Below are positions 19,845 through 46,323 of a DNA stretch of 64,000 nucleotides, one piece after another. Both the position numbers and the translations under genes were made by a program. Where the stretch lies: the NCBI RefSeq assembly GCF_014899185.1, contig NZ_CP045201.1, forward strand, positions 852,501 to 916,500, in the 5' to 3' direction. This DNA comes from Pseudooceanicola spongiae. Its GTDB lineage: Bacteria > Pseudomonadota > Alphaproteobacteria > Rhodobacterales > Rhodobacteraceae. The stretch's first letter is position 1; each line of letters starts with the position of its first letter. The notes beneath the pieces were generated by a model that had not been told where the DNA came from, did no database searches, and was given only the letters and a program-made list of their open reading frames with translations.

Positions 19845-19917
19845 GCTGTGCCCGGAGCGGGCATTCTGACGGCGCCGGGCCGCACGGCAAAGTGGCGAAA
19901 ACCGCCAGATCGGGGTG

Positions 19918-19957
19918 TCGGTATCCGGTCGGTATTGCGTCGGTATCTGAACGGTGC
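19918..19957 (+). repeat. Phased TCGGTAT array, copy 1
   Basis: TCGGTAT occurs at 19918, 19929 and 19940, exactly 11 bp apart, with a degenerate fourth unit ACGGTGC at 19951. The one-turn spacing places all units on one face of the helix, as in iteron or operator arrays. A near-identical array lies at 37203-37242. This copy is about 150 nt upstream of purQ and just after the purS terminator. No known protein is assigned to it. Confidence 0.65.
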
Positions 19958-20108
19958 GGAAAATCGCAAACTGCACGTCAGGTCACCATTGCTTTACCCC
20001 GGTGCGATATGCAGGCGCAGGCGCGGCTAAAGGCTTGATCTGCCGGTGCGGCGCGCGTATCAGCCACGGGATATTCCGCCCGTCCCTTTTTGCCATGGAG
20101 TGCCGCCC

Positions 20109-20911: not shown

Positions 20912-22675
20912 ATGGCAAAAAAACCTTCCCGACGCGGCCTGAATGGCCGCAAGAGCCGCACCATCTCGTGGCGGGCGCGTGTCGCCCTTGGTCTGTTCAT
21001 CGTGCTGGTGGTGGCGGTCGTGGCGATCACCAATGCCATGCTGATGAGCCGCTTTACCGAAACGACGCGCAACCGGGCCGAACTGCGGCTGGCGCTGTTC
21101 GGGGCCAATCTGGTCAGCGAACTGCGGCGCAATTCCATCGTGCCGCAACTGCTGGCGCGCGACCCCGAGCTGATCGGGGCGCTCAATTCTGCCGATTACA
21201 GCCGCTCGACCCAGCGGCTGATTTCGTTTGTCGACGAGATCGGCGCGGCCAGCCTGATGCTGCTGGACAAGGACGGGCGCACGGTGGCGGCGACGGATCG
21301 CAACCGTCTGGGCGAACAGCACAAGTCGGATGCCTATTTCGTCGAGGCGCAACGCTCCAACGAGACGGTTTTTTCGGTGATCCAGCGCGAGGCGTCAGGA
21401 TTTCTGTTCGCCTATTCGCGCCGGGTCGAGCTGCAGGGGCAGTTTCTCGGCGTGATCATCGTTGAGGTCGATCTGCAGAAATTTGAACGGACCTGGGCCG
21501 GGTTCTCGGATGCGCTGCTGGTGATGGATTCCCAGGGCCAGATCATCCTCGCGACCGAGCCGGTCTGGCGCGGGCTGACCGAGCCGCAGGCGGTGGCGCG
21601 CGAAACCCCCGACAGTGCCATTCAGCGGGCGCTGATGGCGACGACGGACTGGGGCTCGGAAGTCGACGGCTATCTGCAGGGCGAGGCGGTGATGCGGGTG
21701 AGTTCGCGCATCCCGTTCCGCGGCTGGCAGGTGGCGAGTTACACAACCTATTCGAGTGTGCGCGAAAAAGTGAACGGCGTTCTGGCGCTGGAGATCATGG
21801 GATTCGCGATCCTGCTGGCGCTGGCCTTCTATGTGCTGAGCCGCAAGACGATGCTGCGGATGGCGCTGTTTCAGCGGGAATCGGCGGAACTTCGCGCACT
21901 TAACGCAAGGCTGCAGCGAGAGATCGCCGAGCGTGAGCGGATGGAAAAGAGCCTTGAGGTGGCGGGACAAACGCTGGCGCAGAGCCAGAAACTGGCCGCC
22001 TTGGGCGAGATGTCGGCGGCGGTAAGCCATGAGCTGAACCAGCCGCTGGCGGCGATGAAGACCTACCTTGCTGGCGCCATGCTGTTGCTGCGCCGCAACC
22101 GTCCTGACGAGGCGCTGTCGAGCTTTGGGCGCATCGACGATCTGATCGGGCGGATGGGCGCGATCACACGACAGCTTAAAAGTTACGCAAGTAAGGGCGG
22201 CGACAGCTTTGCGCCTGTAAACGTTGGCGAGTCCCTTGCGACCTCGCTGTCGATGATGGAGCCGCAACTGCGTCTGCGAAAGGTGCGGATCACCCGCGCA
22301 TTGCCGGAAAAACCTGTTATGGTGATGGCCGACAAGGTGCGGCTGGAACAGGTGATGATCAACCTGTTGCGCAATGCTCTGGATGCGACCTCCAGCGTCG
22401 AGGATGCCCAGATCGACATCCTGTTGTCGGCCGGCGAGACGGCGACGCTGACGGTGCGCGACAATGGCTATGGCATCGCCGATCTAGATGCGCTGTTTGA
22501 GCCTTTCTACACCACCAAGCAGCCCGGCGATGGCGTCGGACTGGGGCTTGCCATCTCCTCCGGCATCGTCAACGACCTCGGCGGGCGTCTGACGGCACGG
22601 AACGCAGTAGGGGGTGGGGCTGTTTTTGAAGTACAGCTTCCTATCTTGTCAGAAGAAATAGAAGCCGCAGAGTAG
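20912..22675 (+). CDS. dctB: DctB-like sensor histidine kinase
   Basis: This 587-aa membrane kinase has a first transmembrane helix (about residues 23-45), a periplasmic PAS-like double sensor (about 46-290) and a second helix (about 293-315). A coiled coil follows, then HisKA with AVSHELNQPLAAMKTYL (His near 372) and HATPase with NLLRNALDATSS and GVGLGLAISSGIV. The layout and the H-box match DctB, which senses C4-dicarboxylates and phosphorylates DctD. The dctD-like gene starts 18 nt downstream. The transporter genes (dctPQM or dctA) are not in the window, so the ligand is inferred from family only. Confidence 0.85.
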   Translation: MAKKPSRRGLNGRKSRTISWRARVALGLFIVLVVAVVAITNAMLMSRFTETTRNRAELRLALFGANLVSELRRNSIVPQLLARDPELIGALNSADYSRSTQRLISFVDEIGAASLMLLDKDGRTVAATDRNRLGEQHKSDAYFVEAQRSNETVFSVIQREASGFLFAYSRRVELQGQFLGVIIVEVDLQKFERTWAGFSDALLVMDSQGQIILATEPVWRGLTEPQAVARETPDSAIQRALMATTDWGSEVDGYLQGEAVMRVSSRIPFRGWQVASYTTYSSVREKVNGVLALEIMGFAILLALAFYVLSRKTMLRMALFQRESAELRALNARLQREIAERERMEKSLEVAGQTLAQSQKLAALGEMSAAVSHELNQPLAAMKTYLAGAMLLLRRNRPDEALSSFGRIDDLIGRMGAITRQLKSYASKGGDSFAPVNVGESLATSLSMMEPQLRLRKVRITRALPEKPVMVMADKVRLEQVMINLLRNALDATSSVEDAQIDILLSAGETATLTVRDNGYGIADLDALFEPFYTTKQPGDGVGLGLAISSGIVNDLGGRLTARNAVGGGAVFEVQLPILSEEIEAAE

Positions 22676-22693
22676 TTGAAGGCGGAGACATAT

Positions 22694-24031
22694 ATGCAAA
22701 AGGCCATGAAGATCGCGATCGTCGATGACGAGCAGGACATGCGTCAGTCGATCAGCCAGTGGTTGGCCCTGTCGGGCTATGACACTGAGACTTTCCCGAG
22801 CGCGGAAGAAGCGCTGAAGAAACTGGGGCCGGATTATCCGGGCATCGTGATTTCGGACATCAAGATGCCGGGAATGGACGGTATGGCGTTCCTGAAGAAA
22901 CTGATGGGCAGTGACTCGGCTTTGCCGGTGATCATGATCACCGGGCACGGCGATGTGCCGATGGCGGTGGAGGCGATGCGTCTTGGCGCGTTCGACTTCC
23001 TTGAAAAGCCGTTCAACCCGGACAAGATGACGGCGCTGGCCAAGAAGGCCGCCAATGCGCGCCGTCTGGTGATGGACAACCGCCAGCTGCGCAAGGAGCT
23101 GTCGGATGGTGGCCAGATCATGCGCAAGCTGATCGGCACCAGCCCGGTGATGGAGCGTCTGCGCGAGGATATCCTCGACCTCGGTCAGGCGGATGGCCAT
23201 GTGCTGATCGACGGCGAAACCGGCACCGGCAAGACGCTGGTGGCGCATTCGTTGCACGCGGTCGGCGCGCGGGCGGGCAAGAAATTCGTGCTGATTTCCT
23301 GTGCGGCGCTGGAAGAAGAGGCGCTGAGCAAGCGTCTGTTCGGCCCGATGATGCCCGAGGACAGCCGTCTGCCGGCGATCGAGGAAGCGCGCGGCGGCAC
23401 GCTGGTGCTGGAGGATGTCGAGGCACTGTCCGACAGTCTGCAGGCGCGTCTGCTGAGCGTGATCAACGAGCAGGGGATGCCGGGCGAGACGCGGATCGTC
23501 GCGATTTCCAACCTGCAGGAGCAGGATCGCACCTGCGAGGACATGCTGCGCCCGGATCTGTTCTATCGCCTCGCGGCGCTGCGGATCACCGTGCCGCCGC
23601 TGCGCCAGCGCGGCGAGGACATCCTGACGCTGTTCACGCGGTTGTCGGAGCAGTTCAGCGATGAATATGGTTGCGATGCGCCGCAGGTCTCGGCGCAGGA
23701 AGCGGCTCAGCTGTTGCAGGCGCCCTGGCCGGGCAACGTGCGTCAGCTGATCAACGTGGCCGAGCGCGCCGTGCTGCAATCGCGCCGCGGCTCTGGCACC
23801 ATCGCCAGCCTGCTGATGAGCGAGCATGAGGAAATGCAGCCCGTCATGACGACGGAGGGCAAGCCGCTGAAGGAATATGTCGAGGCGTTCGAGCGGATGC
23901 TGATCGACAACACCATGCGGCGACACAAGGGCTCGATTTCGTCGGTGATGGACGAGCTGTGTCTGCCACGCCGGACGCTGAACGAGAAGATGGCGAAATA
24001 CGGGCTGCAACGCTCGGATTATCTGGGCTGA
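22694..24031 (+). CDS. dctD: DctD-like NtrC-family response regulator lacking GAFTGA
   Basis: This 445-aa regulator has a receiver domain (acceptor Asp about residue 54 in VISDIKMPG), an AAA+ domain and a C-terminal Fis-type helix-turn-helix (HKGSISSVMDELCLPRRTLN). Walker A is GETGTGKT near residue 173 and Walker B is GGTLVLEDVE near 235. The arginine-finger region RPDLFYRL and sensor II PWPGNVRQL are present. Between ELFG-like RLFG and Walker B the family's GAFTGA loop is missing, replaced by PMMPEDSRLPAIEEARGG. GAFTGA contacts sigma-54, so this protein probably does not activate sigma-54 promoters; Rhodobacter NtrC shows the same loss. The ATG at 22694 follows GGAG; an upstream TTG is less likely. 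Confidence 0.88.
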   Translation: MQKAMKIAIVDDEQDMRQSISQWLALSGYDTETFPSAEEALKKLGPDYPGIVISDIKMPGMDGMAFLKKLMGSDSALPVIMITGHGDVPMAVEAMRLGAFDFLEKPFNPDKMTALAKKAANARRLVMDNRQLRKELSDGGQIMRKLIGTSPVMERLREDILDLGQADGHVLIDGETGTGKTLVAHSLHAVGARAGKKFVLISCAALEEEALSKRLFGPMMPEDSRLPAIEEARGGTLVLEDVEALSDSLQARLLSVINEQGMPGETRIVAISNLQEQDRTCEDMLRPDLFYRLAALRITVPPLRQRGEDILTLFTRLSEQFSDEYGCDAPQVSAQEAAQLLQAPWPGNVRQLINVAERAVLQSRRGSGTIASLLMSEHEEMQPVMTTEGKPLKEYVEAFERMLIDNTMRRHKGSISSVMDELCLPRRTLNEKMAKYGLQRSDYLG

Positions 24032-24054
24032 AGCGGGTCTGAGGTCTGGCAGGG

Positions 24055-24086
24055 GGCGGAGCGGCGTAGGCCGGCTCCGCCTTTTT
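24055..24086 (+). terminator. Terminator of dctBD
   Basis: GGCGGAGC pairs with GCTCCGCC and is followed by TTTTT. It is a clear rho-independent terminator 24 nt after the dctD stop. Confidence 0.85.
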
Positions 24087-24094
24087 GCTGTTGA

Positions 24095-24145
24095 GGGGGC
24101 GCTGCCCCCGCCTGCGGCCCCCCGAAGTATTTTGGGCAAGATGAC
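24095..24145 (+). repeat. GC-hairpin/GTATTT-GCAAGATGA intergenic repeat
   Basis: GGGGGCGCTGCCCCC is a hairpin followed by a second GC-rich arm, then CCGAAGTATTTTGGGCAAGATGACA. Almost the same sequence occurs at 31686-31740, with a shorter piece at 27803. It appears to be a REP-like repeat of this genome, placed right after the dctD terminator. Confidence 0.65.
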
Positions 24146-24756
24146 AGGGGAGAGGCGCAGGATTGGCGGAGTCGGACCATCTTGGGCGCGGCGCGGTTTA
24201 CCCTGTGTTTAGGGGCGGGCGTTAGACCGGGGTGCAGAGCGGGTTCGGGCGCGCGAAAGGGTCCAAGGTCTGGCTGGGGTTGCACAATCGGGGGCGCTTG
24301 CCCGGGGTGTGTGATTTTCTCCATTGTCATTGGGCGGTGCTGGGCCTTATGTTCAATTGACGGGGTTGGGTGTTTCCAGCTCCGCGAGAGTTTCGCTGAA
24401 GACGGGCGTGACGGAGTGACATCCGGCCCCGGTTTCAGAAAAGATTGAACCCTGACAACAGGGTTTGTGCATCGCCGGAGGGCCTCAGGGTCCGGCCGGC
24501 AAAGAATGGGCGGTGCGCCCTCCGACGCGGGAGGTTCCTGAAACAGGGACCGATACCGCGAGAGGGGGCAGCCGTCGGAGAAGAAACGCGATGAGGCGTG
24601 TGAGGAGAGAGACAGTGAGTGGGAGCGCCCTGATGGACGCCCGCGACGCTGTTACATCCACCGCCGACATTGCCCCTGACAGACGCGCTCTACGTACCCT
24701 TGGTCCCCCTGGCACTGCCCGGGCTCCGGGGGCGGTCTGGCGCGCAATTGGATCCA
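24146..24756 (+). promoter_or_regulatory. RNase E promoter region and long 5' leader
   Basis: This 611-nt region contains no convincing gene. A good promoter candidate is TTGTCA (24324-24329), a 17-nt spacer and TTATGT (24347-24352). Transcription from there would give a leader of about 400 nt before rne. The leader is rich in GC hairpins, for example around 24700-24735. In enterobacteria a long rne leader mediates autoregulation by RNase E cleavage, and the same may apply here. Confidence 0.5.
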
Positions 24757-27705
24757 ATGGCAAAGAAGATGCTTATCGATGCCACACACGCAGAAGAAAC
24801 GCGTGTCGTGGTTGTGGACGGAAACAAAGTTGAGGAATTCGATTTTGAGTCCGAGAACAAACGCCAGCTAGCTGGCAACATTTATCTGGCGAAAGTCACG
24901 CGGGTCGAACCGTCGCTGCAGGCGGCGTTCATCGACTACGGCGGGAATCGCCACGGTTTCCTGGCGTTTTCGGAGATTCACCCCGATTACTACCAGATCC
25001 CCGTCGCCGACCGTCAGGCGCTGATGGCGGAAGAACATGCCTATGCCGAAGCGCTGAAGGCGCGTGAGGACGAGGACGAAAAGCCCAAGCGCCGCACCCG
25101 GACGCGCAGCAAGACGCGCGCCGAAGAGGCCGGTTCGGACGATGCCAGGGTCAGTCAGGACATCGAGTCCGATGACGATAGCCCCGAAATCAGCGGCATG
25201 GAGACCATCGACCTTGATGAGGGCGATGATGAGGGCCTGTCGCCCATGGAAACCGTGGCGGAAACGCCTGTCGAGGAGTCCGATGCGTCGGAGGATGACG
25301 ACGGTGACTATGACGACGACGGCTCGGACGACGACGGTGATGACGATGGCGATGATGACCATGCCCATAACGGCAATGGCACGCGCAGCCGTGGCCGTCG
25401 CAGCCGTCGCAAGGATGCCGGTCAGAAAGACAGCGAGATCGAGCACGTCTCGGAAGATGACGACCATGACGACATCCGCCCGCCGCGCAAACCGCGCCCC
25501 AAGCGCTATCGCATTCAGGAAGTCATCAAGGTCCGTCAGATTCTTCTGGTGCAGGTCGTCAAGGAAGAGCGCGGCAATAAAGGCGCGGCGCTGACCACTT
25601 ACCTCAGCCTGGCGGGTCGCTATTGCGTGCTGATGCCGAATACGGCCCGTGGTGGCGGTATTTCGCGCAAGATCACCAATGCCGTCGACCGCAAGAAGCT
25701 GAAGGAAATCGCTGCCGAGATCGACGTGCCGCGTGGCGCGGGTCTGATCGTGCGGACCGCCGGTGCCAAGCGTACCAAGTCCGAGATCAAACGCGACTAT
25801 GAATACCTGCAGCGCCTGTGGGAACAGATCCGGGAGCTGACGCTGCAGAGCATCGCGCCGGCGAAGATCTATGAAGAGGGCGATCTGATCAAACGCTCGA
25901 TCCGCGATCTTTATAGCCGCGAGATCGACGAGGTTCTGGTGGAAGGCGAACGCGGCTATCGCAACGCCAAGGACTTCATGAAGATGATCATGCCGTCCCA
26001 CGCCAAGAACGTGAAAAACTACTCGGACGGTCTGCCGTTGTTCGCGCGCTTCCAGGTCGAGAGCTATCTGGCGGGCATGTTCAACCCCGTCGTGCAGCTG
26101 AAATCCGGTGGCTATATCGTGATCGGCGTCACCGAGGCGCTGGTGGCGATCGACGTCAACTCCGGTCGAGCGACCAAGGAAGGCTCGATCGAGGAGACGG
26201 CGACCAAGACCAACCTGGAGGCCGCCGAAGAGGTGGCGCGCCAGCTGCGTCTGCGTGACCTTGCCGGTCTGATCGTCATCGACTTCATCGACATGGACGA
26301 GCGGCGCAACAACCTGGCTGTCGAAAAGCGGATCAAGGACAAGCTGAAGACCGACCGGGCGCGTATCCAGGTCGGCCGTATCAGCGGCTTTGGTCTGATG
26401 GAGATGAGCCGTCAGCGTCTGCGCCCCGGCATGATCGAGGCGACAACGCAGCCGTGCTCTGCCTGCCATGGCACCGGTCTGATCCGCTCGGACGACAACA
26501 TGGCGCTGAACATCCTGCGCCAGATCGAGGAAGAGGGCACCCGTCGCCGCACCCGTGAGGTGCTGGTGAAATGCCCGGTCGCGATCGCCAACTACCTGAT
26601 GAACCAGAAGCGCGAGCATGTCGCGCAGATCGAGTCGCGCTACGGCATGGCGGTGATGATCGAAGGCCATCCGCATCTGGTCAGCCCGGACTTCGAGATG
26701 GAGAAGTTCAAGACTGCGACGCGTAAGGTTGTCGAAGTGGCACATATTGTTTCGGCGGACATGTCGCTGATGGACAGCGTCGATGGCAATGCCTGGGACG
26801 ATGATGACGCGGCCGAGGAGGACGAGGATGAGGTCGAGACCTCGGTCCCCGAGAAGGCTGCCGAGAAGCCCGTCGAGACCAAGGCCGAGGCGAAAGCCGA
26901 GCCGCGCAAGGACGAGACTGGCCCCGAGGCTGGGGGCGAGGGCGACGAGCAGCCCAAACCCAAGCGGCGTCGTCGGCGTCGGCGCAAGAAGAAGGGTGGC
27001 GGTCAGGACGACGGCGGCTCGGGTGATGACAATATGAGCGCCTCGGACAGTGAGTCCGACAGCGATGGCGACGACAGTGCCGATGGCGACAACGATGACG
27101 CACCGAGCACGGACAAGCCCTCGGGCAGCCGGTCGAGCCGTCGTTCGCGTGGTCGCCGCTCGGGCAATCGGGATGCCTCGCAGGAGACTGCGGGCAGCCA
27201 GACCGGGACGACCCAGGGTGACGTCGTGGCTGAGGCCCGCGAAGAGATCGCGGCTGAGGCACATGCCGAGACTACGCCTGATGCTCGGGCAGAGGTCGAA
27301 GCGGAGGCCCGCGAAGAGGTGAAAGCCGAAGCGCAGACCTCGCAGCAGGCGGTGCCTGAGGGGCAGGTTGTTGGAAGCCCGGCGACGCAGGACAGTGTTG
27401 CAGCCGTGGCTGAGAGCACGGAACCCGCTCCTGTTGCCGAGACCGTTGCGGCGGAGAAGACTTCTGATGCTTTGGCCGAGGTGTCCTCTGGCGAGGTTGC
27501 GGCGGAGGCCAGTGCCCTGACGCAGGATCCGGCGCAGGATACGGCCCGCCCGGAACCGGTGGCCGAGACGCCGAAGGCCGAGGTGCCCGCTGCGACACCG
27601 CAGGCAGAGCCCGCCATGGCGGAGGAGGCCCCCCAGCCAGAGCAGGAGACTGCCGAGGATGGCGCCAAGCCGAAACGGCGTGGCTGGTGGTCGCTGGGAA
27701 GCTGA
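24757..27705 (+). CDS. rne: Ribonuclease E
   Basis: This 982-aa endoribonuclease is the core of RNA processing and decay. The N-terminus AKKMLIDATHAEETRVVVVD is diagnostic. The S1 domain (about residues 35-290) is split by an acidic/basic insert of about 150 residues, a known feature of alphaproteobacterial RNase E. The DNase I-like catalytic part has VAIDVNSGRAT and GLIVIDFIDMDE (metal-binding Asp), and the zinc link is QPCSACHGTG. The C-terminal 280 residues are disordered: acidic tracts, an Arg/Lys patch (KRRRRRRRKKKGGG) for RNA binding, and Ala/Glu/Pro-rich sequence for degradosome partners. The ATG at 24757 is chosen because upstream codons are not family-like. Confidence 0.96.
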   Translation: MAKKMLIDATHAEETRVVVVDGNKVEEFDFESENKRQLAGNIYLAKVTRVEPSLQAAFIDYGGNRHGFLAFSEIHPDYYQIPVADRQALMAEEHAYAEALKAREDEDEKPKRRTRTRSKTRAEEAGSDDARVSQDIESDDDSPEISGMETIDLDEGDDEGLSPMETVAETPVEESDASEDDDGDYDDDGSDDDGDDDGDDDHAHNGNGTRSRGRRSRRKDAGQKDSEIEHVSEDDDHDDIRPPRKPRPKRYRIQEVIKVRQILLVQVVKEERGNKGAALTTYLSLAGRYCVLMPNTARGGGISRKITNAVDRKKLKEIAAEIDVPRGAGLIVRTAGAKRTKSEIKRDYEYLQRLWEQIRELTLQSIAPAKIYEEGDLIKRSIRDLYSREIDEVLVEGERGYRNAKDFMKMIMPSHAKNVKNYSDGLPLFARFQVESYLAGMFNPVVQLKSGGYIVIGVTEALVAIDVNSGRATKEGSIEETATKTNLEAAEEVARQLRLRDLAGLIVIDFIDMDERRNNLAVEKRIKDKLKTDRARIQVGRISGFGLMEMSRQRLRPGMIEATTQPCSACHGTGLIRSDDNMALNILRQIEEEGTRRRTREVLVKCPVAIANYLMNQKREHVAQIESRYGMAVMIEGHPHLVSPDFEMEKFKTATRKVVEVAHIVSADMSLMDSVDGNAWDDDDAAEEDEDEVETSVPEKAAEKPVETKAEAKAEPRKDETGPEAGGEGDEQPKPKRRRRRRRKKKGGGQDDGGSGDDNMSASDSESDSDGDDSADGDNDDAPSTDKPSGSRSSRRSRGRRSGNRDASQETAGSQTGTTQGDVVAEAREEIAAEAHAETTPDARAEVEAEAREEVKAEAQTSQQAVPEGQVVGSPATQDSVAAVAESTEPAPVAETVAAEKTSDALAEVSSGEVAAEASALTQDPAQDTARPEPVAETPKAEVPAATPQAEPAMAEEAPQPEQETAEDGAKPKRRGWWSLGS

Positions 27706-27728
27706 TCACAGGCTGTGAGCCGAGAGAT

Positions 27729-27760
27729 GAAACGCCGCGCAGGAGACTGCGCGGCGTTTC
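27729..27760 (+). terminator. Terminator hairpin of rne
   Basis: GAAACGCCGCGCA pairs perfectly with TGCGCGGCGTTTC over a 6-nt loop. The stem ends in TTTC but has no longer T run. Confidence 0.65.
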
Positions 27761-27802
27761 GCGTCAGGTCGGGCGTGGGACCGCTTGGGGCGGGTTGTGT
27801 TC

Positions 27803-27823
27803 AAGTATTTAAGGCAAGATGAG
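27803..27823 (+). repeat. Partial copy of the GTATTT-GCAAGATGA repeat
   Basis: AAGTATTTAAGGCAAGATGAG matches the 3' half of the elements at 24095 and 31686, without the full GC-rich hairpin. It lies between rne and tusA. Confidence 0.5.
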
Positions 27824-27867
27824 AAAGCTGGGGCGTCCCGTGAGGCAGCGGGCCGCGGGGCTTGGGA

Positions 27868-28110
27868 TCAGGCGCGGGGTTTGCGGATCACGAAGGCATG
27901 GCCGGGCTTGGCGGTGTCGAGGTCCGTGGCGGAGAGCAGCTCATACCCGGCCTGGGCGCAGAAATGCGGCATGTCGATCAGGGCCATGGGATCATCGGTG
28001 AGAATGCGCAGGCAGGCACCGGGGGCCAGGGCCATCAGGCGCTTGCGCGCGCGCAGCACGGGCAGCGGGCAGAGCAGCCCGCGGGCGTCGATATCCTCGG
28101 CAATCTCCAT
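27868..28110 (-). CDS. TusA/SirA-family sulfurtransferase
   Basis: This 80-aa protein is a small cytosolic sulfur carrier. The family signature is IDARGLLCPLPVLRARKRL, with the persulfide-forming Cys in CPLP. The later DDPMALIDMPHFCAQAGYEL segment corresponds to the second conserved block. Members serve tRNA thiolation or general sulfur trafficking. The ATG at 28110 is chosen since it gives the normal size; the frame continues upstream without support. The divergent neighbour is ccdA, a thiol-reductant transporter, which may reflect a shared sulfur or redox theme. Confidence 0.9.
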   Translation of the reverse strand: MEIAEDIDARGLLCPLPVLRARKRLMALAPGACLRILTDDPMALIDMPHFCAQAGYELLSATDLDTAKPGHAFVIRKPRA

Positions 28111-28253
28111 GGCACTCTGGATAGGAGGCGGGCGCGGGCAAGTCCAGTGGCTCCTGAGGTTGGGTGCAACAGTTTGACACGGCGATGTGAGGTGGGGCGC
28201 GGGTGACGCGCACGCGCGAACCGGGTAGGAGGGAGGCAATCCTAGGAGGGGTC

Positions 28254-29003
28254 ATGTTCGGAATCGAGATCATGGATGCGGCGCTGATGCCCGCGATGCT
28301 GGTGGCGCTGCTGGCGGGGGTGGTGTCGTTCCTGAGCCCCTGTGTGTTGCCGATCGTGCCGCCCTACCTCGCCTATATGTCGGGCGTGTCGCTGAATGAC
28401 ATGGGGCGCAGGGGGGCACGGTCGCGCGCGTTGGTGCCGGCTCTGTTCTTTGTCATGGGCCTGTCGACGGTGTTTCTGTTTCTGGGCTTTGCGGCCTCGG
28501 CCATCGGGTCGGTGTTTCTGTCCTATCAGGGGTGGTTCAACACGATTGCCGGGGTGCTGGTGATGGTGATCGGGGCGCATTTCGTCGGGCTCTACCGCAT
28601 CGGCTTTCTGGACCGCGAGGCGCGGCTGGATGCCGGGGATCGCGGCGGCAGTGCCTTTGGCGCCTATGTGCTGGGGCTGGCCTTTGCCTTTGGCTGGACG
28701 CCCTGCATCGGGCCGCAGCTGGGCGCGATCCTGTCGCTGGCGGCGCAGGAGGCCTCGCTGAGCCGCGGGACGCTGTTGCTGGCGGTCTATGCGGCGGGGC
28801 TTGGCATTCCGTTTCTGCTGGTCGCGGCCTTCCTGCCGAGCCTGACCGGGCTGATGGGCTGGATGAAGCGGCATATGGAGCAGATCGAGCGCGCCATGGG
28901 GCTGTTGCTCTGGACCATTGGCCTGCTGATGCTGACGGGCGGATTTTCGCGCTTCTCTTATTGGCTGCTTGAGACCTTTCCGGGTCTTGCCGTTCTGGGA
29001 TAA
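28254..29003 (+). CDS. ccdA: Cytochrome c biogenesis protein CcdA
   Basis: This 249-aa inner-membrane protein has six predicted helices and carries electrons from cytosolic thioredoxin to periplasmic thiol proteins needed for heme attachment to cytochrome c. The paired redox Cys are in SFLSPCVLPIVPPY (helix 1) and AFGWTPCIGPQLGA (helix 4), both typical of the short CcdA form. The ATG at 28254 follows a strong AGGAGGGG; the upstream in-frame GTG is less likely. A hairpin follows the stop. Confidence 0.94.
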   Translation: MFGIEIMDAALMPAMLVALLAGVVSFLSPCVLPIVPPYLAYMSGVSLNDMGRRGARSRALVPALFFVMGLSTVFLFLGFAASAIGSVFLSYQGWFNTIAGVLVMVIGAHFVGLYRIGFLDREARLDAGDRGGSAFGAYVLGLAFAFGWTPCIGPQLGAILSLAAQEASLSRGTLLLAVYAAGLGIPFLLVAAFLPSLTGLMGWMKRHMEQIERAMGLLLWTIGLLMLTGGFSRFSYWLLETFPGLAVLG

Positions 29004-29004
29004 G

Positions 29005-29034
29005 CCTCTACCTTTGCGAAAAGGTAAGAGTTTT
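29005..29034 (+). terminator. Terminator of ccdA
   Basis: CTCT-ACCTTT pairs with AAAGGTAAGAG (one bulged A) and is followed by TTTTC. It lies directly after the ccdA stop and before the hydrolase gene. Confidence 0.6.
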
Positions 29035-29053
29035 CTGCGCCAAGGGACAGGAC

Positions 29054-30337
29054 ATGAGCCGAGACGCCACATTCCATTCCCGCGCTGAGAGCGGCCCTGA
29101 CGGCGCAGACCCCGCGCCCGTGGTTTTGCGCCGTCAGGTGTTTTACATCCCCGGCTATGATCCGATCCATCCGCGCCGCTACCGTGAGCTCTACCGCAAG
29201 GAAGCGGCTGTGCAGGGCGCGATCTCGGGGTATGGCATCGGGGTCAAGGCGCGCCGGCGACGGGCGGCCTATGGCTGGCAGGTCAATGCCGAGATCGAAG
29301 GGCAGGCTGTCGAGGCGGATGTCGAGGTCATGCTCTGGTCCGATATCGTGCGCGACAGCATGGGGACCTCGATCGCCGGGACCTATCTGCAGCTGGCGCG
29401 CACGGCCTGGAGCTATGTCGCGTCGGGGGCGCTGCTGCGGCTGATGCGGCTGCGCAAGGGACCGGTGCTGGCGGCGCTCTATCCGGTGGGGTTTTTGCTG
29501 GCGCAGCTGCTGATTGCTGTGCTGATCGGCGGGCTGATCGGGGGCGTGTTCAACTGGGCTGCGCGCGGATCGCATCTGAACGGGCTGTCACCTTGGATCG
29601 GGATCGCGGTCGGGCTGGGCATCGTGCCGTTTGTGCTGGGCTGGTTCAAGGCGCGCGATGGTCGCTTTTACGCCTATTACCTGATGCATGACTATTCGTT
29701 CTCTGCACGCGACAAGGGCGCCTACCCGGAGCTGCTGGAGCAGCGTCTGTCCCAGTTTCGCACCCGCATTGAAGAGGCGCTGAGGGGCGATGCGCAGGAG
29801 GTGCTGGTGGTCGGGCATTCCTCTGGCGCGCATCTTGCGGTGTCGGTTCTGGCGGATCTGTTGCGGGTCGGGGGGCTGCCGGAGGGCGCTCCCGTGCTGT
29901 CGTTGGTCACGCTGGGGCAGGTGGTGCCGATGGTGTCGTTCCTGCCGGAGGCGAAGCGGTTGCGCCGCGACCTTGCCTATCTCAGCGCGCAGGATCGGGT
30001 GTTCTGGCTGGACGTCAGCGCGCCGGGCGATGGCTGTGCCTTTGCGCTGTGTGATCCTGTGGCGGTGACGGGGGTGGCCCCGGTGGACAAACGCTGGCCT
30101 CTGGTGATCTCGGCGGCATTTTCCCAGAGCCTGAGCCCGGAGAGATGGGCCGAACTGCGCTGGCGGTTCTTTCGCGTGCATTTTCAGTATCTTTGCGCCT
30201 TTGATCGCCCGAAGGATTACGACTATTTCCGCATCACCGCCGGGCCGCAGACGCTGGCGCAGCGCTATGCGGGACGGCCCGCGTCGCCGGGGCGGATCGA
30301 GCGGGCGGTGAACCGGCATACCTCGGTCGCGCCATGA
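29054..30337 (+). CDS. Membrane-associated alpha/beta-hydrolase-like protein
   Basis: This 427-aa protein has an N-terminal strand with RQVFYIPGYDPIHPRRY and two hydrophobic segments (about residues 138-165 and 174-195). A nucleophile-elbow-like VLVVGHSSGAHLAVSVLADL (GxSxG) lies near residue 256. This suggests a serine hydrolase anchored in the inner membrane. No catalytic Asp/His could be assigned with certainty. The last codons overlap the ATG of the following P450 (ATGA), so the two are co-translated and may modify the same, probably lipidic, substrate. The family is a conserved alphaproteobacterial one without a name I know. Confidence 0.7.
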   Translation: MSRDATFHSRAESGPDGADPAPVVLRRQVFYIPGYDPIHPRRYRELYRKEAAVQGAISGYGIGVKARRRRAAYGWQVNAEIEGQAVEADVEVMLWSDIVRDSMGTSIAGTYLQLARTAWSYVASGALLRLMRLRKGPVLAALYPVGFLLAQLLIAVLIGGLIGGVFNWAARGSHLNGLSPWIGIAVGLGIVPFVLGWFKARDGRFYAYYLMHDYSFSARDKGAYPELLEQRLSQFRTRIEEALRGDAQEVLVVGHSSGAHLAVSVLADLLRVGGLPEGAPVLSLVTLGQVVPMVSFLPEAKRLRRDLAYLSAQDRVFWLDVSAPGDGCAFALCDPVAVTGVAPVDKRWPLVISAAFSQSLSPERWAELRWRFFRVHFQYLCAFDRPKDYDYFRITAGPQTLAQRYAGRPASPGRIERAVNRHTSVAP

Positions 30338-31740
30338 CGCCACCAAAGCCGCCCGCGCGTGAGGGGGCGGTGTCGCTCTGGCGGTATGCGCGGCTGTTTC
30401 GGGCGGATATCCTGTCGGCGCAGCCTGCGCGGCTCTATCGGGCGTGGATGGCGGAGTTTCGCACGCCGTTCTTCCGTTCGTTCTTGATCAATCAGCCGGA
30501 GCTGGTGAAACGGGTGCTGAAGGAGCGCCCCGGTGCCTTTCCCAAATCGGCGCGCGTGGGCGAGGGGTTGCGACCCCTGCTGGGCAATTCGGTGTTTCTG
30601 AGCAATGGCGCGACCTGGGAGCGTCAGCGGCGCATCATCGACCCCGCGTTTGAAGGGGGGCGGCTGCGTGTGCAGTTTCCCGCGATGCGCGACGCGGCGC
30701 AGGCCTGCGTGGCGCGCCTGGAGGCTGTTGCGGGAACAGAGGTGGAGATCGAGGCGGAGACGAGCCATGCGGCGGCAGATGTAATCTTTCGCACGCTGTT
30801 TTCGATCCCCATTGAGCATGCACAGGCGGGCGCGGTCTTCGATCAGTTTCGCGTCTATCAGCGGGCGCAGCCGGTGCTGAATCTTGCTGCGCTGCTGCCT
30901 GTGCCCCGGTGGATGCCGCGCTATTTTCCGCGCCGGGTGCGTCGGGCTGGCCGTGCGATCCGCGGTCTGATCCGGACTTTGGTCGAGGAGCGTTTGCGTG
31001 CGATCGAGGCCGGAGTGGCGCCGGACGATCTGGCGACCCGGATCATGACGACGCGCGATCCGGTGAGCGGCGAGACATTCGATGTCGAAGAGATGGTCGA
31101 TCAGGTGGCGATCTTTTTCCTCGCCGGACATGAGACTTCTGCTTCGGCTCTGGCCTGGACGCTGTATCTGCTGGCGACGCATGAGGATTGGCAGGAGGCT
31201 GTGGCGGCCGAGGTTGCCTCGGCGCAAGAGTTGTCCTTTGCCGATCTGTCGCGGCTGGTGCTGACCCGGGACGTGTTTCGCGAGGCGTTACGGCTGTATC
31301 CGCCGGTGCCGATGATGGTGCGCGAGGCGGTTGAGCGTGATGTGTTTCGTGGGCGGGTGGTGCCTGTGGGCGCGCAGATCGTGCTGAGCCCCTGGCATCT
31401 GCATCGACATGAGCGGCTCTGGCCCGATCCGGATGCCTTCGATCCAGGGCGCTGGCAGAGCGAGGCCGGGCGGCTGGCACAGCGAGAGGCCTATATGCCG
31501 TTCTCCGCTGGGCCGCGGGTCTGTCCGGGGGCCGGGTTTGCCATGATCGAAGGCGTCGTGCTGCTGGCCGAGATCCTGCGGCGGTATCGAGTCGAGCCGG
31601 TGGTCGGTCGGGTGCCCGAACCTGTGGCGCATCTGACGGTGCGCAGTCGGACTGGCATCTGGCTGCGCCTTGTTCAGCGCGATCAGGGGGCGCTGCCCCC
31701 GCGCCTGGCGGCGCCCCCCGAAGTATTTGGGGCAAGATGA
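30334..31740 (+). CDS. Cytochrome P450 with repeat-derived C-terminus
   Basis: This 468-aa heme monooxygenase has the I-helix oxygen-binding motif IFFLAGHETSASALAW (about residue 263), the ExxR region FREALRLYPPVPMMVREA and the heme loop FSAGPRVCPGAGFAMIEG with the axial Cys. The sequence resembles bacterial fatty-acid or lipid-active P450s, but the substrate cannot be assigned. No ferredoxin or reductase gene is adjacent. The last residues (GALPPRLAAPPEVFGAR) and the stop are encoded entirely by the REP-like element at 31686-31740, so the native C-terminus was probably replaced by insertion of the repeat. It overlaps the upstream hydrolase by 4 nt. Confidence 0.92.
   Translation: MTPPKPPAREGAVSLWRYARLFRADILSAQPARLYRAWMAEFRTPFFRSFLINQPELVKRVLKERPGAFPKSARVGEGLRPLLGNSVFLSNGATWERQRRIIDPAFEGGRLRVQFPAMRDAAQACVARLEAVAGTEVEIEAETSHAAADVIFRTLFSIPIEHAQAGAVFDQFRVYQRAQPVLNLAALLPVPRWMPRYFPRRVRRAGRAIRGLIRTLVEERLRAIEAGVAPDDLATRIMTTRDPVSGETFDVEEMVDQVAIFFLAGHETSASALAWTLYLLATHEDWQEAVAAEVASAQELSFADLSRLVLTRDVFREALRLYPPVPMMVREAVERDVFRGRVVPVGAQIVLSPWHLHRHERLWPDPDAFDPGRWQSEAGRLAQREAYMPFSAGPRVCPGAGFAMIEGVVLLAEILRRYRVEPVVGRVPEPVAHLTVRSRTGIWLRLVQRDQGALPPRLAAPPEVFGAR
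31686..31740 (+). repeat. GC-hairpin/GTATTT-GCAAGATGA repeat inside P450 3' end
   Basis: GGGGGCGCTGCCCCC, a GC arm and CCCCGAAGTATTTGGGGCAAGATGA match the element at 24095. Here the repeat forms the final codons of the P450 gene, and the TGA within AAGATGA is its stop codon. The convergent dehydrogenase gene ends 6 nt beyond. Confidence 0.7.
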
Positions 31741-31746
31741 GAGAGC

Positions 31747-34155
31747 TCAGGCCCGCAGGGCGCTGCCGTCGGGATCAAAGCCGGTGTCGGTGAGGACGGT
31801 GGCGGGGCACATCTGACCGAGGATCTCGATCTCGGCAGTGGTGCCGGGACAGGCAAGGGCGGTTGGCAGAAAGCCGAAGGCGAGGCTTTTGTGCAGGTGG
31901 TGGGAATAGCCGCCGGAGGTGCAGAACCCGACCACGGTGCCGTCGTGCCAGATCGGCTCATAGGCCTGGACGTCGGCGTCGGTCGTGGTGACCTCGAAGG
32001 CGCAGAGCTTGCGGTTGGGGGGCGTGGTGCGCGCCGTCTCAGCAGCGGTGCGGCCGATGAAGGCCTCGGGTTTGGACCATTGGATGAAGCGGTCCAGGCC
32101 CGTTTCGGCCGGGGTGTAGTCTGGGGAGTATTCCCGCAACCAGGAGCCGAAGAGGCGGTCGAGGCGCAGCGACATCATGGCGCGCATGCCGAAGGGGTGC
32201 ATGTCGTGCGGCTGGCCGGCTTGCCAGAGTGTCCACCAGAGGCTGCGTTGCGCCATGGGATCGGTGTAGATCTCGTACCCGAGATCGCCGGTGTAGGAGA
32301 CGCGCTGGACGATGCAGTCGGCATTGCCGATGGTCATGCGCGCCACATCAAGGAAGCGCAGCGTGCTGACGTCCGACAGGGTACAGGCTTGCAGGACCTC
32401 TTTTGCTTTCGGACCCGCGATTTGGAATCCTGTGGAAAGGTCTGAAATATTCGTGACTTCCACGCCATCTTTGATGTTCTGCATGAACCATCGCAGGTGG
32501 TAGGCCTGGGCGGAGTAGCTGGCGGTCAGGCGGAACTCACGCTCTGACAGGCAGGAGATCGTGAAGTCGCCGATGATGCGGCCTGAGGGGGCGAGCATCG
32601 GCGAGAGCGAGATGCGGCCCGGTTTTGGCACGCGGCCCGCCATGATCGTGTTGAGCCAGCTGCGGGCGTTCGGCCCCGTGACGAGGTATTTCCCGAAGTT
32701 CTGAAGTTCATTGATTCCAACGGATTGGCGAACGGCTTTCACCTCTCGTGCGGTGGCTTGAAACGCGTTGGAGCGGCGGAAGGATGGGGTCTCGAACGTC
32801 GGCTCACCGCCTTGCGCGAAGTAGTTGGCGACTTCGAGTCCGTATTGCTGGCCCCAGACCGCACCAAGGTCGGAGAAGATGTCGTACATTGGCGTGGTGC
32901 GGAACGGGCGCGCGGCGGGAAGCTCTTCGTTCGGGTAGGAGACGGAGAAGCGTTTCTGATAGTTTTCAATGACTTTGGGCCGGGTGTAGCCCGGCGTGAT
33001 CCAGGAGCCGAAGCGTGCCACGTCGAGGGCGGTGGTGTCGCGTTCGCATTCGCCCTCGATCATCCATTGCGCCAGCATCAGGCCGACACCGCCGCCTTGG
33101 CTGAACCCGGCCATGACGGCGCAGGCGCTCCAGTAATTGCGCAATCCGGGGACCGGGCCGACCAGCGGGTTGCCGTCGGGGGCGAAGGTGAAGGGGCCGT
33201 GGATGACGTTTTTCACGCCCGCCGTGGCCAGAACCGGGAAGCGGCGATAGGCAAATTCGATTGAGTCCGAGATCTTGTCGAGGTCGTCGGGCAGGAGTTC
33301 GTGGCCAAAGCTCCACGGGGTGCCGTTGACGGCCCAGGGCTTGGCGCGTTGTTCGTAAAAGCCGATGCAGAGGCCGCGGCCTTCCTGGCGCAGGTAGCTC
33401 TCGCCCGCCGGATCCATGACGTGGGGGTGTTCGCTAGGGCGTTGATATATTTCGGGAATATCGTCGGTGACGATGTAGTGATGCTCCATCGGGTGCAGCG
33501 GCAGATAGACGCCGGCCATCGCCGCGACCTCGCGCGCCCAGAGGCCGGCGGCATTGACGACGTGCTCGGCGTGGATGGTGCCCTTGTCGGTGACGACGTC
33601 CCATGTGCCGTCGCCGCGCTGGTTGGTCTCTCGCACCATGCAGTGGGTTTCGATCAACGCGCCGGCCATCTTGGCGGCGCGGGCATAGGCGTGAGTGGTG
33701 CCGGAAGGGTCGAGGTGACCGTCGAGGGGATCGTAGAGTGCACCGATGATGCCCTCGAGGTTGGTCACGGGGGCTATATCGCGGATCTCATCCGGCGTGA
33801 CGATGCGGGTGTCGAGGCCCATGTGCCGGTGCTTGGCGCGTTCCGCCACCAGCATATCGAAGCGATCCTGTGTGTCGGCGAGAGTGACGCCACCAACGTG
33901 GTGCAAGCCGCAGGACATGCCGGTGATCTGCTCCAGCTCGCGGTAGAGGCGGATCGTGTAGCCCTGCAGCGCGGCCATATTGGTGTCGCCGTTCAGTGTA
34001 TGAAACCCGCCCGCCGCATGCCAGGTCGAGCCGGAGGTCAGCTCCGAGCGTTCCAGCAGCATGACGTCGGACCAGCCGAGTTTTGTCAGGTGGTAGAGCA
34101 CGGAACAGCCGACGACACCGCCTCCGATAACAACGACTCGGGTTGTGGTCTTCAT
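31747..34155 (-). CDS. Dimethylglycine dehydrogenase-type FAD/GcvT protein
   Basis: This 802-aa protein combines an FAD oxidase and a tetrahydrofolate-binding half. The N-terminal dinucleotide fold is VVVIGGGVVGCSVLYHL. The segment GSTWHAAGG contains the His that carries covalent FAD in dimethylglycine dehydrogenase. The oxidase part runs to about residue 380, a linker domain to about 440, and a GcvT-like aminomethyl/folate domain to the end (VSYTGDLGYEIY, GMRAMMSLRLDRLFG). Such enzymes demethylate dimethylglycine or sarcosine and pass formaldehyde to folate, as in glycine betaine catabolism. Dimethylglycine is the best guess; sarcosine or related substrates are possible. The chosen ATG lies 8 nt after AGGAG. 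Confidence 0.85.
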   Translation of the reverse strand: MKTTTRVVVIGGGVVGCSVLYHLTKLGWSDVMLLERSELTSGSTWHAAGGFHTLNGDTNMAALQGYTIRLYRELEQITGMSCGLHHVGGVTLADTQDRFDMLVAERAKHRHMGLDTRIVTPDEIRDIAPVTNLEGIIGALYDPLDGHLDPSGTTHAYARAAKMAGALIETHCMVRETNQRGDGTWDVVTDKGTIHAEHVVNAAGLWAREVAAMAGVYLPLHPMEHHYIVTDDIPEIYQRPSEHPHVMDPAGESYLRQEGRGLCIGFYEQRAKPWAVNGTPWSFGHELLPDDLDKISDSIEFAYRRFPVLATAGVKNVIHGPFTFAPDGNPLVGPVPGLRNYWSACAVMAGFSQGGGVGLMLAQWMIEGECERDTTALDVARFGSWITPGYTRPKVIENYQKRFSVSYPNEELPAARPFRTTPMYDIFSDLGAVWGQQYGLEVANYFAQGGEPTFETPSFRRSNAFQATAREVKAVRQSVGINELQNFGKYLVTGPNARSWLNTIMAGRVPKPGRISLSPMLAPSGRIIGDFTISCLSEREFRLTASYSAQAYHLRWFMQNIKDGVEVTNISDLSTGFQIAGPKAKEVLQACTLSDVSTLRFLDVARMTIGNADCIVQRVSYTGDLGYEIYTDPMAQRSLWWTLWQAGQPHDMHPFGMRAMMSLRLDRLFGSWLREYSPDYTPAETGLDRFIQWSKPEAFIGRTAAETARTTPPNRKLCAFEVTTTDADVQAYEPIWHDGTVVGFCTSGGYSHHLHKSLAFGFLPTALACPGTTAEIEILGQMCPATVLTDTGFDPDGSALRA

Positions 34156-34511
34156 GGGTCATGCTCCTGTGCTCTCTTCCTGGGATGCTGTGGGGGCTGA
34201 ACGGGCAGAGCAAGCCTGATTGCGACAGGTCGTGTCGAATTTGACGGATGCCGCTGGGATTGGCCAAGGGCGGATAGGCTGGCGGCGCGTATTGGCTGAA
34301 ATCCGGGCGATTTTCGGGCTTTGCGCATTAGTTTGCAAATTCAGTGCAGGCCTTTGCATATCTGCGAGGCACGATGGAGGTGCGCAGCTGAGGTCATGAC
34401 GGCGCATCGTCGGGAAATGCAGACTTTCCCAAAGGCGAAAATGACTTACCTTGCGCAGGGCGACCCGAAAGCGGGGTCGGATCACAGCAGATACCAAAGG
34501 CAGGCCGACTG
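34156..34511. other. Divergent intergenic region with TTTGCAAA sites
   Basis: This 356-nt region separates the dehydrogenase and DUF2254 genes. It contains TTTGCAAA at 34332-34339 and a partial copy TTTGCATA 13 nt further on. No gene is supported. Both promoters should be here. Confidence 0.45.
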
Positions 34512-35711
34512 ATGCTCCCATCCCTTTTGCGCAAGATGCACGAATTCTCGCGCCGCCTCGTGATCCGCGTCATGCTGATTGCCTTGCTGGCGGTGCTCTC
34601 GGTGGGCCTGGCAAAGCTCCTGTCCGGTCTGATCCCGGAAGCCTGGGACGGTCTGGTCGGCAAGGATGCTGTCGATCATATCCTGTCGATTATCGCCAAC
34701 TCGATGCTGACGGTCACGACGTTTTCGCTGACGGTGATGGCGGCGGCACATCGCAACGTCAGCTCTCAGTGGACGCCGCGCGCGCACCAGATGCTGTTGC
34801 AGGACACCACGACGCATACGGTTCTGGCGACTTTCGTGGGTGCTTACCTCTATGCTTTGCTGGCGATCATTCTGCGCGATACCGGGATTTTCGTGCATCA
34901 GGGGCTGGCGGTGCTGTTTGGCATGACGATGCTGGTCGTCGCGATGATCGTGATCGCGATCATTCGCTGGATCTCGCATCTTGAGATGCTGGGCAGCCTG
35001 ATCGAGACCTCGCAGAAGATCGAGGATCAGACCGCTGTCGCCTATGAAATGCGGGCCGAGTATCCCGCCCTCGGGGCACGTATACTGGATGTGGCGCAGA
35101 TCCCTGAGAGCGCCTCAAATGTCTATGCGCATCAGACGGGCTATGTGCAGAAGATCTATCAGGATCTCTTGCAGGATGCGGCGAAGGACGCGGAGGCCTG
35201 TATCTGGTTGCTGCACCCGGTGGGCGGCTTCGTCCACAAGGGTCAGATTCTGGCGCGGGTCGACAGGGAGGGAGAGGCGCTGCTGGATACCGTGCGGCGC
35301 AACGTGGCCATCGGCAGTCTGCGCAACTTTGAGCAGGATCCGATCTTTGGCCTGATCTGCCTGTCTGAAATCGCCGTGCGGGCGCTGTCACCTGGGGTCA
35401 ACGATCCGGGCACGGCTGTCGACATGATGCGGCGCATCACCCGCGTGCTGATGGATGTGAACGATCCGTTGAACGGCGCGGATCATGAGATCCTGCACGA
35501 CCGGTTGTTCCTGCCAGAACTGGAGCGCGCCGAGCTGGTCTCGAGGCCTCTTGAGCCGATCCTGCACGATTGGAACCGCCGGCCGGAGATGTTGGAGGCG
35601 ATGCACCAGACCCTCGATGCGCTGTCTGAGCATCACGATCCCGATGTCGCTGGCGCGGCGCGGAAATTGCGGGCCGAGACCTTCGCGGAGCAGATGAACG
35701 TCCCCCAGTAG
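34512..35711 (+). CDS. DUF2254 family membrane protein
   Basis: This 399-aa protein has four hydrophobic segments in its first 160 residues (about 17-40, 60-80, 105-125, 133-157), with the conserved ANSMLTVTTFSLTVMAAAHRNVSSQWTPR stretch between helices. A large soluble C-terminal part (about 170-399) contains HPVGGFVHKGQIL and ALSPGVNDPGTAVDMMRRI, both typical of DUF2254. The function is not established; the fold suggests a membrane protein with a cytoplasmic regulatory domain. It converges on the CNNM/CBS gene with only 35 nt between the stops. Confidence 0.85.
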   Translation: MLPSLLRKMHEFSRRLVIRVMLIALLAVLSVGLAKLLSGLIPEAWDGLVGKDAVDHILSIIANSMLTVTTFSLTVMAAAHRNVSSQWTPRAHQMLLQDTTTHTVLATFVGAYLYALLAIILRDTGIFVHQGLAVLFGMTMLVVAMIVIAIIRWISHLEMLGSLIETSQKIEDQTAVAYEMRAEYPALGARILDVAQIPESASNVYAHQTGYVQKIYQDLLQDAAKDAEACIWLLHPVGGFVHKGQILARVDREGEALLDTVRRNVAIGSLRNFEQDPIFGLICLSEIAVRALSPGVNDPGTAVDMMRRITRVLMDVNDPLNGADHEILHDRLFLPELERAELVSRPLEPILHDWNRRPEMLEAMHQTLDALSEHHDPDVAGAARKLRAETFAEQMNVPQ

Positions 35712-35746
35712 AGCGTTGTTTTAAAATGATCTGCTGGGGGAGTGGG

Positions 35747-37087: not shown

Positions 37088-37202
37088 GAGAGTTCCTCTT
37101 CTTTGAAGGAGTTATGGGCATGGCGACGCCATGGTTCAAGTGGTGGTGCGGGGTGCGGCGGGCAGAGGCGCGCACAAAGGCGATTTCGCGAAAATCGGGC
37201 TG

Positions 37203-37242
37203 TCGGTATCTGGTCGGTATCGCGTCGGTATCCGGGCGGTGC
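37203..37242 (+). repeat. Phased TCGGTAT array, copy 2
   Basis: TCGGTAT occurs at 37203, 37214 and 37225 with exact 11-bp spacing, and a degenerate fourth unit GCGGTGC at 37236. The flank GCGAAAATCGGGCTG also resembles that of copy 1 at 19918. It lies between xerD and the CNNM/CBS gene, reading away from the latter's start. Confidence 0.65.
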
Positions 37243-37264
37243 GCCCAGAAGGGGCGCCGCGGTC

Positions 37265-38206: not shown

Positions 38207-38212
38207 GCTGCC

Positions 38213-39910: not shown

Positions 39911-39914
39911 CCTG

Positions 39915-40064
39915 TCATTGAACATCCAGCACCACAGGCGTTCGCATCTCTTGCACGGGAGGCGAAAAGTCCGCGCCAAGCCATGGTCCGACGTAGGCGT
40001 AGGCCACGAGGGCGATTCCCCCGAGGATAGCCAGATAAACCAGCCACTTGATAATGCGCAGCAT
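39915..40064 (-). CDS. 49-aa membrane protein upstream of the exported protein
   Basis: This short gene reads MLRIIKWLVYLAILGGIALV, one hydrophobic helix of about 20 residues, then a short periplasm-like tail ending VVLDVQ. It starts about 120 nt from the divergent aroK gene and stops 4 nt before the large exported protein, so it is the first gene of the operon that continues to xerD. The protein-like composition and position support a real gene. The function is unknown; it may anchor or assist the exported neighbour. Confidence 0.65.
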   Translation of the reverse strand: MLRIIKWLVYLAILGGIALVAYAYVGPWLGADFSPPVQEMRTPVVLDVQ

Positions 40065-43025: not shown

Positions 43026-43043
43026 CCGAAGGGAGTGCGCCTG

Positions 43044-43571: not shown

Positions 43572-43594
43572 CTGCAATCTGTTGAGGAGCCTTC

Positions 43595-46309: not shown

Positions 46310-46323
46310 GGAAAGGGGCCGCC

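Follow-up and report, generated by a model that had tools for sequence, protein, structure and literature searches.

Polar arrays of four 11-bp units tied to one-sided GC-skew domains on the chromosome of Pseudooceanicola spongiae

The DNA under study (the window) is a 64,000-nucleotide stretch of the Pseudooceanicola spongiae chromosome. Within it, a purS gene (Pfam PurS) is followed by a terminator-like hairpin at 19820-19836, a short array of direct repeats (array 1) and a purQ-like gene (Pfam GATase_5). A preliminary description of this DNA had placed the array between the purS terminator and purQ, and had reported three TCGGTAT heptamers one helical turn apart, a degenerate fourth unit and a near-identical array 17 kb away. 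These observations were borne out. The three heptamers of array 1 are perfect, start at 19918, 19929 and 19940 with a period of exactly 11 bp, and are followed by a related fourth unit that starts at 19951; the heptamers of array 2 start at 37203, 37214 and 37225. The features are as follows.

19897..19917, + strand: upstream flank of array 1, conserved in the flank consensus of 100 arrays, GAAAACCGCCAGATCGGGGTG
19918..19928, + strand: array 1, unit 1, TCGGTATCCGG
19929..19939, + strand: array 1, unit 2, TCGGTATTGCG
19940..19950, + strand: array 1, unit 3, TCGGTATCTGA
19951..19961, + strand: array 1, unit 4, ACGGTGCGGAA, a terminal unit of the GTGC type that is kept among 100 arrays
37188..37202, + strand: upstream flank of array 2, GCGAAAATCGGGCTG
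37203..37213, + strand: array 2, unit 1, TCGGTATCTGG
37214..37224, + strand: array 2, unit 2, TCGGTATCGCG
37225..37235, + strand: array 2, unit 3, TCGGTATCCGG, the same letters as unit 1 of array 1
37236..37246, + strand: array 2, unit 4, GCGGTGCGCCC
21000..48000 (approximate limits), + strand: domain with high GC skew (2-kb windows at about 0.08-0.18), lying 3' of array 1 and spanning array 2

Outside this domain, the skew of the window is -0.02 to 0.10 before array 1 and about 0.02-0.09 beyond 48 kb. The pattern TCGGTAT-N4-TCGGTAT matches four times in the window, twice in each array, and in none of 100 shuffles; single heptamers occur at five other places. A weight-matrix scan of the window returned array 1 and array 2 and no third array. 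Array 2 lies 3' of a tyrosine-recombinase gene (37265-38206, Pfam Phage_integrase), possibly xerC or xerD. When the window was compared with Rfam, two tRNAs alone reached the gathering score and no structured-RNA family was found at the arrays, and base-pair covariation among 100 copies of the array gave no standout complementary signal. An RNA element was rejected on these grounds.

Number, spacing and placement on the chromosome

The preliminary description had regarded restriction of the array to these two places as grounds for abandoning the element. The chromosome (genome G000, one contig of 4,365,781 bp) carries 127 heptamer pairs, split 63 to 64 between the two strands. When up to 3 mismatches were allowed in its 25 fixed positions, the four-unit pattern matched 129 times; the reversed-pattern control gave 0 in both searches. 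Shifted matches of one array may count twice in the 129, and at least 117 distinct arrays were placed, completely up to 3.53 Mb and as a lower bound beyond. A blind self-match scan covered the 75 kb of intergenic sequence within 384 kb of own DNA. It gave 13 matches at offset 11, all belonging to the array family, and 0-2 at each of the other offsets from 8 to 16. In unselected DNA, arrays score between 44 and 97 on the weight matrix, and the only two weaker matches score 33 and 11, a gap expected of maintained sites. A blastn comparison of a consensus of 71 bases with 72,556 plasmid records and 50,697 phage records gave no copy at E <= 1, a weak negative that concerns the own dialect only.

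The array is a mark of about 60 letters, with a core of 44 bp made of four near-identical 11-bp units. Its consensus was drawn from 100 arrays of the chromosome (all pairs up to 3.53 Mb and, beyond that point, those in sampled 20-kb stretches only) and reads GAAA..CGCCAAATCGGGATG, then TCGGTATCNNG, TCGGTATCNGA, ACGGTA(T/A)CNGA and ACGGTGCG, followed by a short A/T run. Both arrays of the window fit it. Heptamers 1 and 2 were the search pattern and are hence fixed; units 3 and 4 are independent of the search, and in the 100 copies their cores are nearly invariant and their spacers variable. The fourth unit, which had seemed degenerate, is real and regular, being mostly (A/G)CGGTGCG. Conservation is confined to the unit cores and short flanks and is lost past about -20 and +48. 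Head-to-tail 11-bp units with fixed ends, usually four in number, would most simply form a platform for adjacent copies of one protein. A GTTAAC-like motif flanks both sides of 17 of the 100 arrays and one side of 9, mostly about 31 bp before and about 62 bp after the first heptamer; an unselected 384 kb of own DNA contains just 11 GTTAAC sequences. By eye, the motif also lies beside arrays of two other genomes of the family (G146 and G095) and of Roseovarius.

The arrays are evenly spaced. Among the at least 117 placed arrays the mean spacing is 36.7 kb, with a coefficient of variation (CV) of 0.71 versus 0.98-0.99 for random placement (2 of 5000 simulations as low). In the fully covered part, which holds 95 arrays, the CV is 0.65 (0 of 5000 simulations as low), and 5 gaps are shorter than 10 kb where 22 are expected. 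Spacing there also depends on orientation, a result that does not rest on base composition, with medians of 41 kb for converging, 29 kb for tandem and 21 kb for diverging pairs; converging pairs are wider than diverging ones (permutation p 0.0024-0.004), as though about 10 kb 3' of each array were reserved for it. Arrays of like orientation do not cluster (57 runs, 59.4 expected).

Nearly all arrays are intergenic. Gene contexts were assigned to 91 of them after 3 edge cases and 6 in-gene cases were dropped; genes were called with a simple codon-usage finder rather than a standard annotator, and named by eye except for the Pfam-assigned genes of the window. Same-direction gaps hold 34 + 19 arrays, converging gaps 26 and diverging gaps 12, and the right-hand neighbour gene ends at the array in 60/91 (p 0.003). 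Three near-identical copies sit behind terminator-like hairpins, 3' of what appear by eye to be 5S rRNA gene ends.

Direct repeats of 11 bp bound head to tail are known from the parC/ParR centromere, the Pho box and oriT accessory sites, of which a genome has one or few, beside their own genes. The arrays are likewise 11-bp direct repeats, and their geometry of a heptamer plus 4 is that of the Pho box; they differ in being more than 100 in number, and the neighbours that they share between genomes look like housekeeping genes. Could they be operators of a PhoB-type transcription factor? The unit geometry agrees, and the 53/91 arrays in same-direction gaps are by their position upstream of some gene. 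Against this, the promoter-rich diverging gaps are the rarest (12/91, against 26 converging gaps, which have no promoter-side gene), the spacing is even, and orientation is tied to skew rather than to genes (see below). We consider this reading highly improbable. The operator or regulon reading in general was rejected, since the gene contexts favour no promoters.

Relatives and dialects

Of 198 genomes of the family, 12 carry the TCGGTAT pair, the own genome among them, and several of these occurrences are single, chance-like matches. Among the matches listed for named records, the three-unit form belongs to Rhodobacteraceae/Rhodobacterales but for one Bacteroidales record, which was dropped from the named set; the carriers listed include Roseovarius, Salinihabitans, Shimia, Pseudooceanicola, Silicimonas, Sulfitobacter and Boseongicola. 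In G192, the only other species of the genus searched, no array match was found, and a blind 11-bp self-match scan of 364 kb gave 1 match.

The same architecture is written with other letters in other genera, and these "dialects" came to light as matches to the reversed-pattern control. The dialect GTATGGCTNGC occurs in G067, G145, G105 and G135, and further GTAT or TATG dialects occur in G146, G095, G130, G197, G063 and others. For example, 10 of the 11 arrays read in G095 follow the plan GTAT, GTAT, GTAT, GTGC, and 9 of the 11 have an AAAA tract just 5' of the array, as in the own genome. The dialects suggest that the specificity of the putative binding protein drifts. A class-wide sample of 240 genomes includes 237 from outside the family. 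None of these 237 exceeds 3 GTAT-form matches apart from G303, whose 11 matches lie in two tandem places. In G329 the reversed 11-bp pattern matches 18 times, on one strand throughout, and G071 has 30 matches with an 11-bp period; both may be tandem satellites or further dialects. In G197 (loci L304, L312, L320 and L328) the units are CATATG palindromes every 11 bp that match on both strands, so polarity there must come from the spacers.

The preliminary description had also counted absence from orthologous positions in close relatives against the element, and here the outcome is divided. G192 has no match, and the sole orthologous gap compared there, between yhhQ-like and arfB-like genes (names by eye), holds a decayed remnant; other genera do carry arrays, and some of these adjoin the same ends of genes. 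The yhhQ-like/arfB-like gap carries an array in G000, in G145 and, in a different dialect, at locus L309, and the arfB-like gene adjoins an array in a named Roseovarius record (L105). The 3' end of a gltD-like gene (by eye) has an array in G000, G145, G197 and at L307. The leuC-leuD gap has arrays of two dialects, and most of 30 genomes inspected have none there. Several of the loci L303-L332 are one array fetched twice.

Neighbours shared between genomes were surveyed among genes no more than 600 bp from an array. For the counts that follow, genes of fewer than 60 residues, repeated proteins and matches below 50% identity were dropped. When the genomes were pooled, 289 array-adjacent genes gave 19 matches to genes next to arrays in the own genome, and 640 non-adjacent genes gave 14 (p 0.0017); p is 0.09 when only other dialects are counted, and group by group the sharing is not significant (p 0.11, 0.34, 0.12). 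For the 19 shared genes, the gene end agrees in 19/19 and the direction in 13/19. Across dialects, some places are retained. In two genera (L151 and L157), an array lies inside a valyl-tRNA synthetase-like gene (by eye) as a short in-frame insert.

Polarity and GC-skew domains

The strand that carries the array is also the G-rich strand of its surroundings in 93/100 arrays of the own genome, in 94/105 of the named relatives (loci below 4,000 bases dropped) and in 29/30 GTATGGCT arrays. Single heptamers lie on the G-rich strand in 33/68 cases, and 60 sampled permuted heptamers in 1804/3296; arrays in the same unselected DNA as the single heptamers do so in 19/22. Since these heptamer controls are near even, base content explains little of the polarity of the arrays. 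Skew on the array strand is positive in 85/91 arrays with a gene context (31/34 and 19/19 in same-direction gaps, 25/26 in converging gaps, 10/12 in diverging gaps), and genes of both orientations show the same shift at their third codon positions. Array orientation follows local GC skew, not gene direction, and the attention that the preliminary description gave to downstream genes was therefore probably beside the point.

The reach of this relation was estimated by regression over 844 one-kb windows, which oversample the surroundings of arrays. Downstream of an array the effect on skew is +0.088 at 0-2 kb, +0.084 at 2-5 kb, +0.065 at 5-10 kb and +0.055 at 10-20 kb, and then falls to +0.022 at 20-40 kb and +0.009 at 40-80 kb. 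Upstream it is +0.059 at 0-2 kb and +0.029 at 2-5 kb, and no farther term is significant. The regression reaches an R2 of 0.60; with replichore as the sole term R2 is 0.16, and the highest value among 200 strand shuffles is 0.385. Across 464 kb of unselected DNA, the downstream field correlates with skew at 0.66, a narrow margin over the maximum of 0.62 in 500 strand shuffles, and the upstream field still correlates at 0.35. Along a contiguous 400 kb, skew domains begin near arrays, and some skewed stretches are without an array; between a divergent array pair at 1.908 and 1.916 Mb the skew flips. With skew fading within 5 kb upstream and persisting for 20-40 kb downstream, each array seems to head a one-sided territory.

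Close to the array (0.1-1.5 kb, n=66), the named relatives run against this model, with a skew of 0.097 upstream exceeding 0.078 downstream (p 0.012), and the flank at 1.5-3 kb (n=27) agrees with it (0.049 upstream, 0.110 downstream). Among small samples of dialects, the polarity agrees in G130, G146 and G197 and is mixed in G063 and in the L310 group; the L307 group agrees on the other strand, its TATG strand being the C-rich one. All 11 arrays read in G095 have G-rich flanks, before and after, on the array strand. In the array-less G192 the skew is flat, with a 4-kb standard deviation of 0.026-0.039 per contig piece (364 kb sampled) versus 0.071 in the own genome.

These data bear on whether the arrays are selfish elements. 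REP sequences are found in about 100 copies per genome, in intergenic DNA near gene ends, with lineage dialects, and in all these respects the arrays resemble REP/BIME elements. A selfish or semi-domesticated MITE- or REP-like repeat could be evenly spaced through insertion immunity and could take its orientation from a pre-existing strand asymmetry, skew then being the cause. The mostly intergenic placement with the right-hand gene ending at the array, the dialects, the GTTAAC-like motif at fixed distances and the lack of arrays in G192 would all suit such a repeat. The arrays nevertheless differ in being direct rather than palindromic (both array regions of the window lack inverted repeats, and so lack the imperfect palindrome or stem-loop of REP/BIME), in their even spacing and in their one-sided skew territories. 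Conservation limited to unit cores and short flanks, the variation of pair spacing with orientation and the retention of some places across dialects also argue against it, and, with the skew of G192 flat, a pre-existing skew would itself need to be lineage-specific. An origin of this kind is unlikely, in our judgment.

The direction of the arrays relative to replication was considered as well. Two perfect parS-like sites at 3217213 and 3219112 of G000 suggest an ordinary origin near 3.22 Mb, and the sampled GC skew switches sign near 1.0 Mb. Of the 117 arrays placed, 74 point to the expected terminus: 22/28 within 550 kb of it and 52/89, near even, farther out. Uniform replichore polarity was rejected on these counts. 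The arrays thus resemble KOPS, the octamers read by FtsK, in being polar and skewed and in their orientation near the terminus; KOPS are polarised to dif over whole replichores, and the arrays farther out are not. No skewed 7-letter word exceeds base content, as a KOPS-like word would. Another possibility is that the arrays are cryptic one-way replication origins or restart sites, at which synthesis begins with the array strand as leading strand. The sign of the skew (a G-rich leading strand) and its downstream decay would be accounted for, as would the drop of the replichore term from 0.049 to 0.011 once arrays enter the regression. The parS pair, the 22/28 arrays near the expected terminus that still point to it, the lack of any recognised initiator box of a known kind, and an upstream effect at 2-5 kb that would go unexplained make this improbable.

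A possible one-way DNA transaction

The composition of the flanks gives further information on the process. Up to about 15 kb downstream, fourfold sites are richer in G and poorer in C, A and T than those far upstream, and the GC content around own arrays is 0.649 downstream versus 0.618 upstream (p 8e-12); the rise is not significant in the named set or in G055. The footprint is not one of simple cytosine deamination on one strand, and would fit GC-biased, strand-directed repair or conversion. This matters for the idea that the arrays are chromosomal oriT-like starts of single-strand transfer between cells. One-sided decay would be expected of such starts, and direct repeats with helical spacing occur at known oriTs. 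Downstream fourfold sites are, however, poorer in T as well as in C, unlike the C-to-T signature of exposed single strands, and the skew reaches 2-5 kb upstream too, so that we give this idea only a slim chance.

The explanation that we tentatively prefer, with somewhat less than even confidence, is that the arrays are polar 4 x 11 bp sites of a putative sequence-specific protein, which start or bound a one-way DNA transaction. Copies of the protein would fill the four units side by side, one helical turn each. The occupied site would start, or turn back and bound, a transaction directed toward the 3' side of the array that weakens over roughly 15-20 kb. Recombination-coupled DNA synthesis, following a Chi-like logic, would be the most likely process: recombination from a polar stop may yield 3' single strand over a few kb on the upstream side, with synthesis running one way on the downstream side, and we infer that a one-sided, decaying footprint with a short reach on the opposite side is what this would produce. 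Binding of a protein is suggested by the sequence, as it was in the preliminary description, and on this reading the arrays would cause the skew rather than follow it, although the skew could have come first.

Chi, the site of RecBCD/AddAB, is polar, dispersed and lineage-specific, and marks where one-way 3'-primed synthesis can begin; it is one short motif found every few kb. The arrays are similarly polar, dispersed and lineage-specific, with the array strand G-rich downstream. They differ in consisting of four phased units over 44 bp (25 positions are fixed in the search pattern), in lying about 37 kb apart, and in having dialects that vary within one family. Where Chi stimulates recombination directionally, the arrays show compositional footprints, read in one genome per species. 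The earlier statement that the array belongs to no named type held in the tests made.

The covered portions of the open-access literature, including PMC7947584 and PMC6854486, contain no description of such arrays; subscription papers and preprints lie outside this scope.

If polar sites of this kind do act on the chromosome, its strand composition would be set less by the replication origin than by hidden directional sites, which would be a new, extra level at which chromosomes are organised in this widespread family of marine bacteria. It would also offer a tractable case of DNA-binding specificity changing along with about 100 sites. A bolder and rather doubtful extension is that the system is a bacterial counterpart of recombination hotspots that are directed by motifs, in which a fast-evolving DNA-binding protein and more than 100 polar sites would split the chromosome into territories of one-way exchange or synthesis, the protein and its sites changing letters together between genera and the places being partly kept.

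A different one-way process in this family would be directional headful packaging by its gene transfer agent (GTA), with the arrays as pac sites. The GTA marker TIGR02217 is present in 154/198 family genomes. Of the 14 genomes with at least 13 three-unit matches, 12 carry this marker and a 13th (G019) has a capsid gene; packaging would fit the direction, and the decay length would equal several headfuls. On the other hand, G095, with 17 three-unit matches, has no match to the GTA g12 marker or capsid (as a draft of 350 contigs, in which absence is uncertain), and G055 and G176, with 10 pairs each, also match neither marker nor capsid. G192 carries a GTA cluster that looks complete by eye, yet no arrays. 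Of 20 regions inspected, 19 yielded a candidate small terminase and one yielded no terminase. By eye the candidate is alike in array-bearing genomes and in four array-less ones, being short and lacking a recognised DNA-binding domain. In the portion of PMC6854486 covered, the R. capsulatus small terminase is described as having no helix-turn-helix and binding non-specifically. We therefore disfavour packaging and regard it as very improbable. In both species of the genus, the GTA cluster adjoins fabF- and mltG-like genes by eye (L353, at 515490-533113 of the own genome, and L354 in G192).
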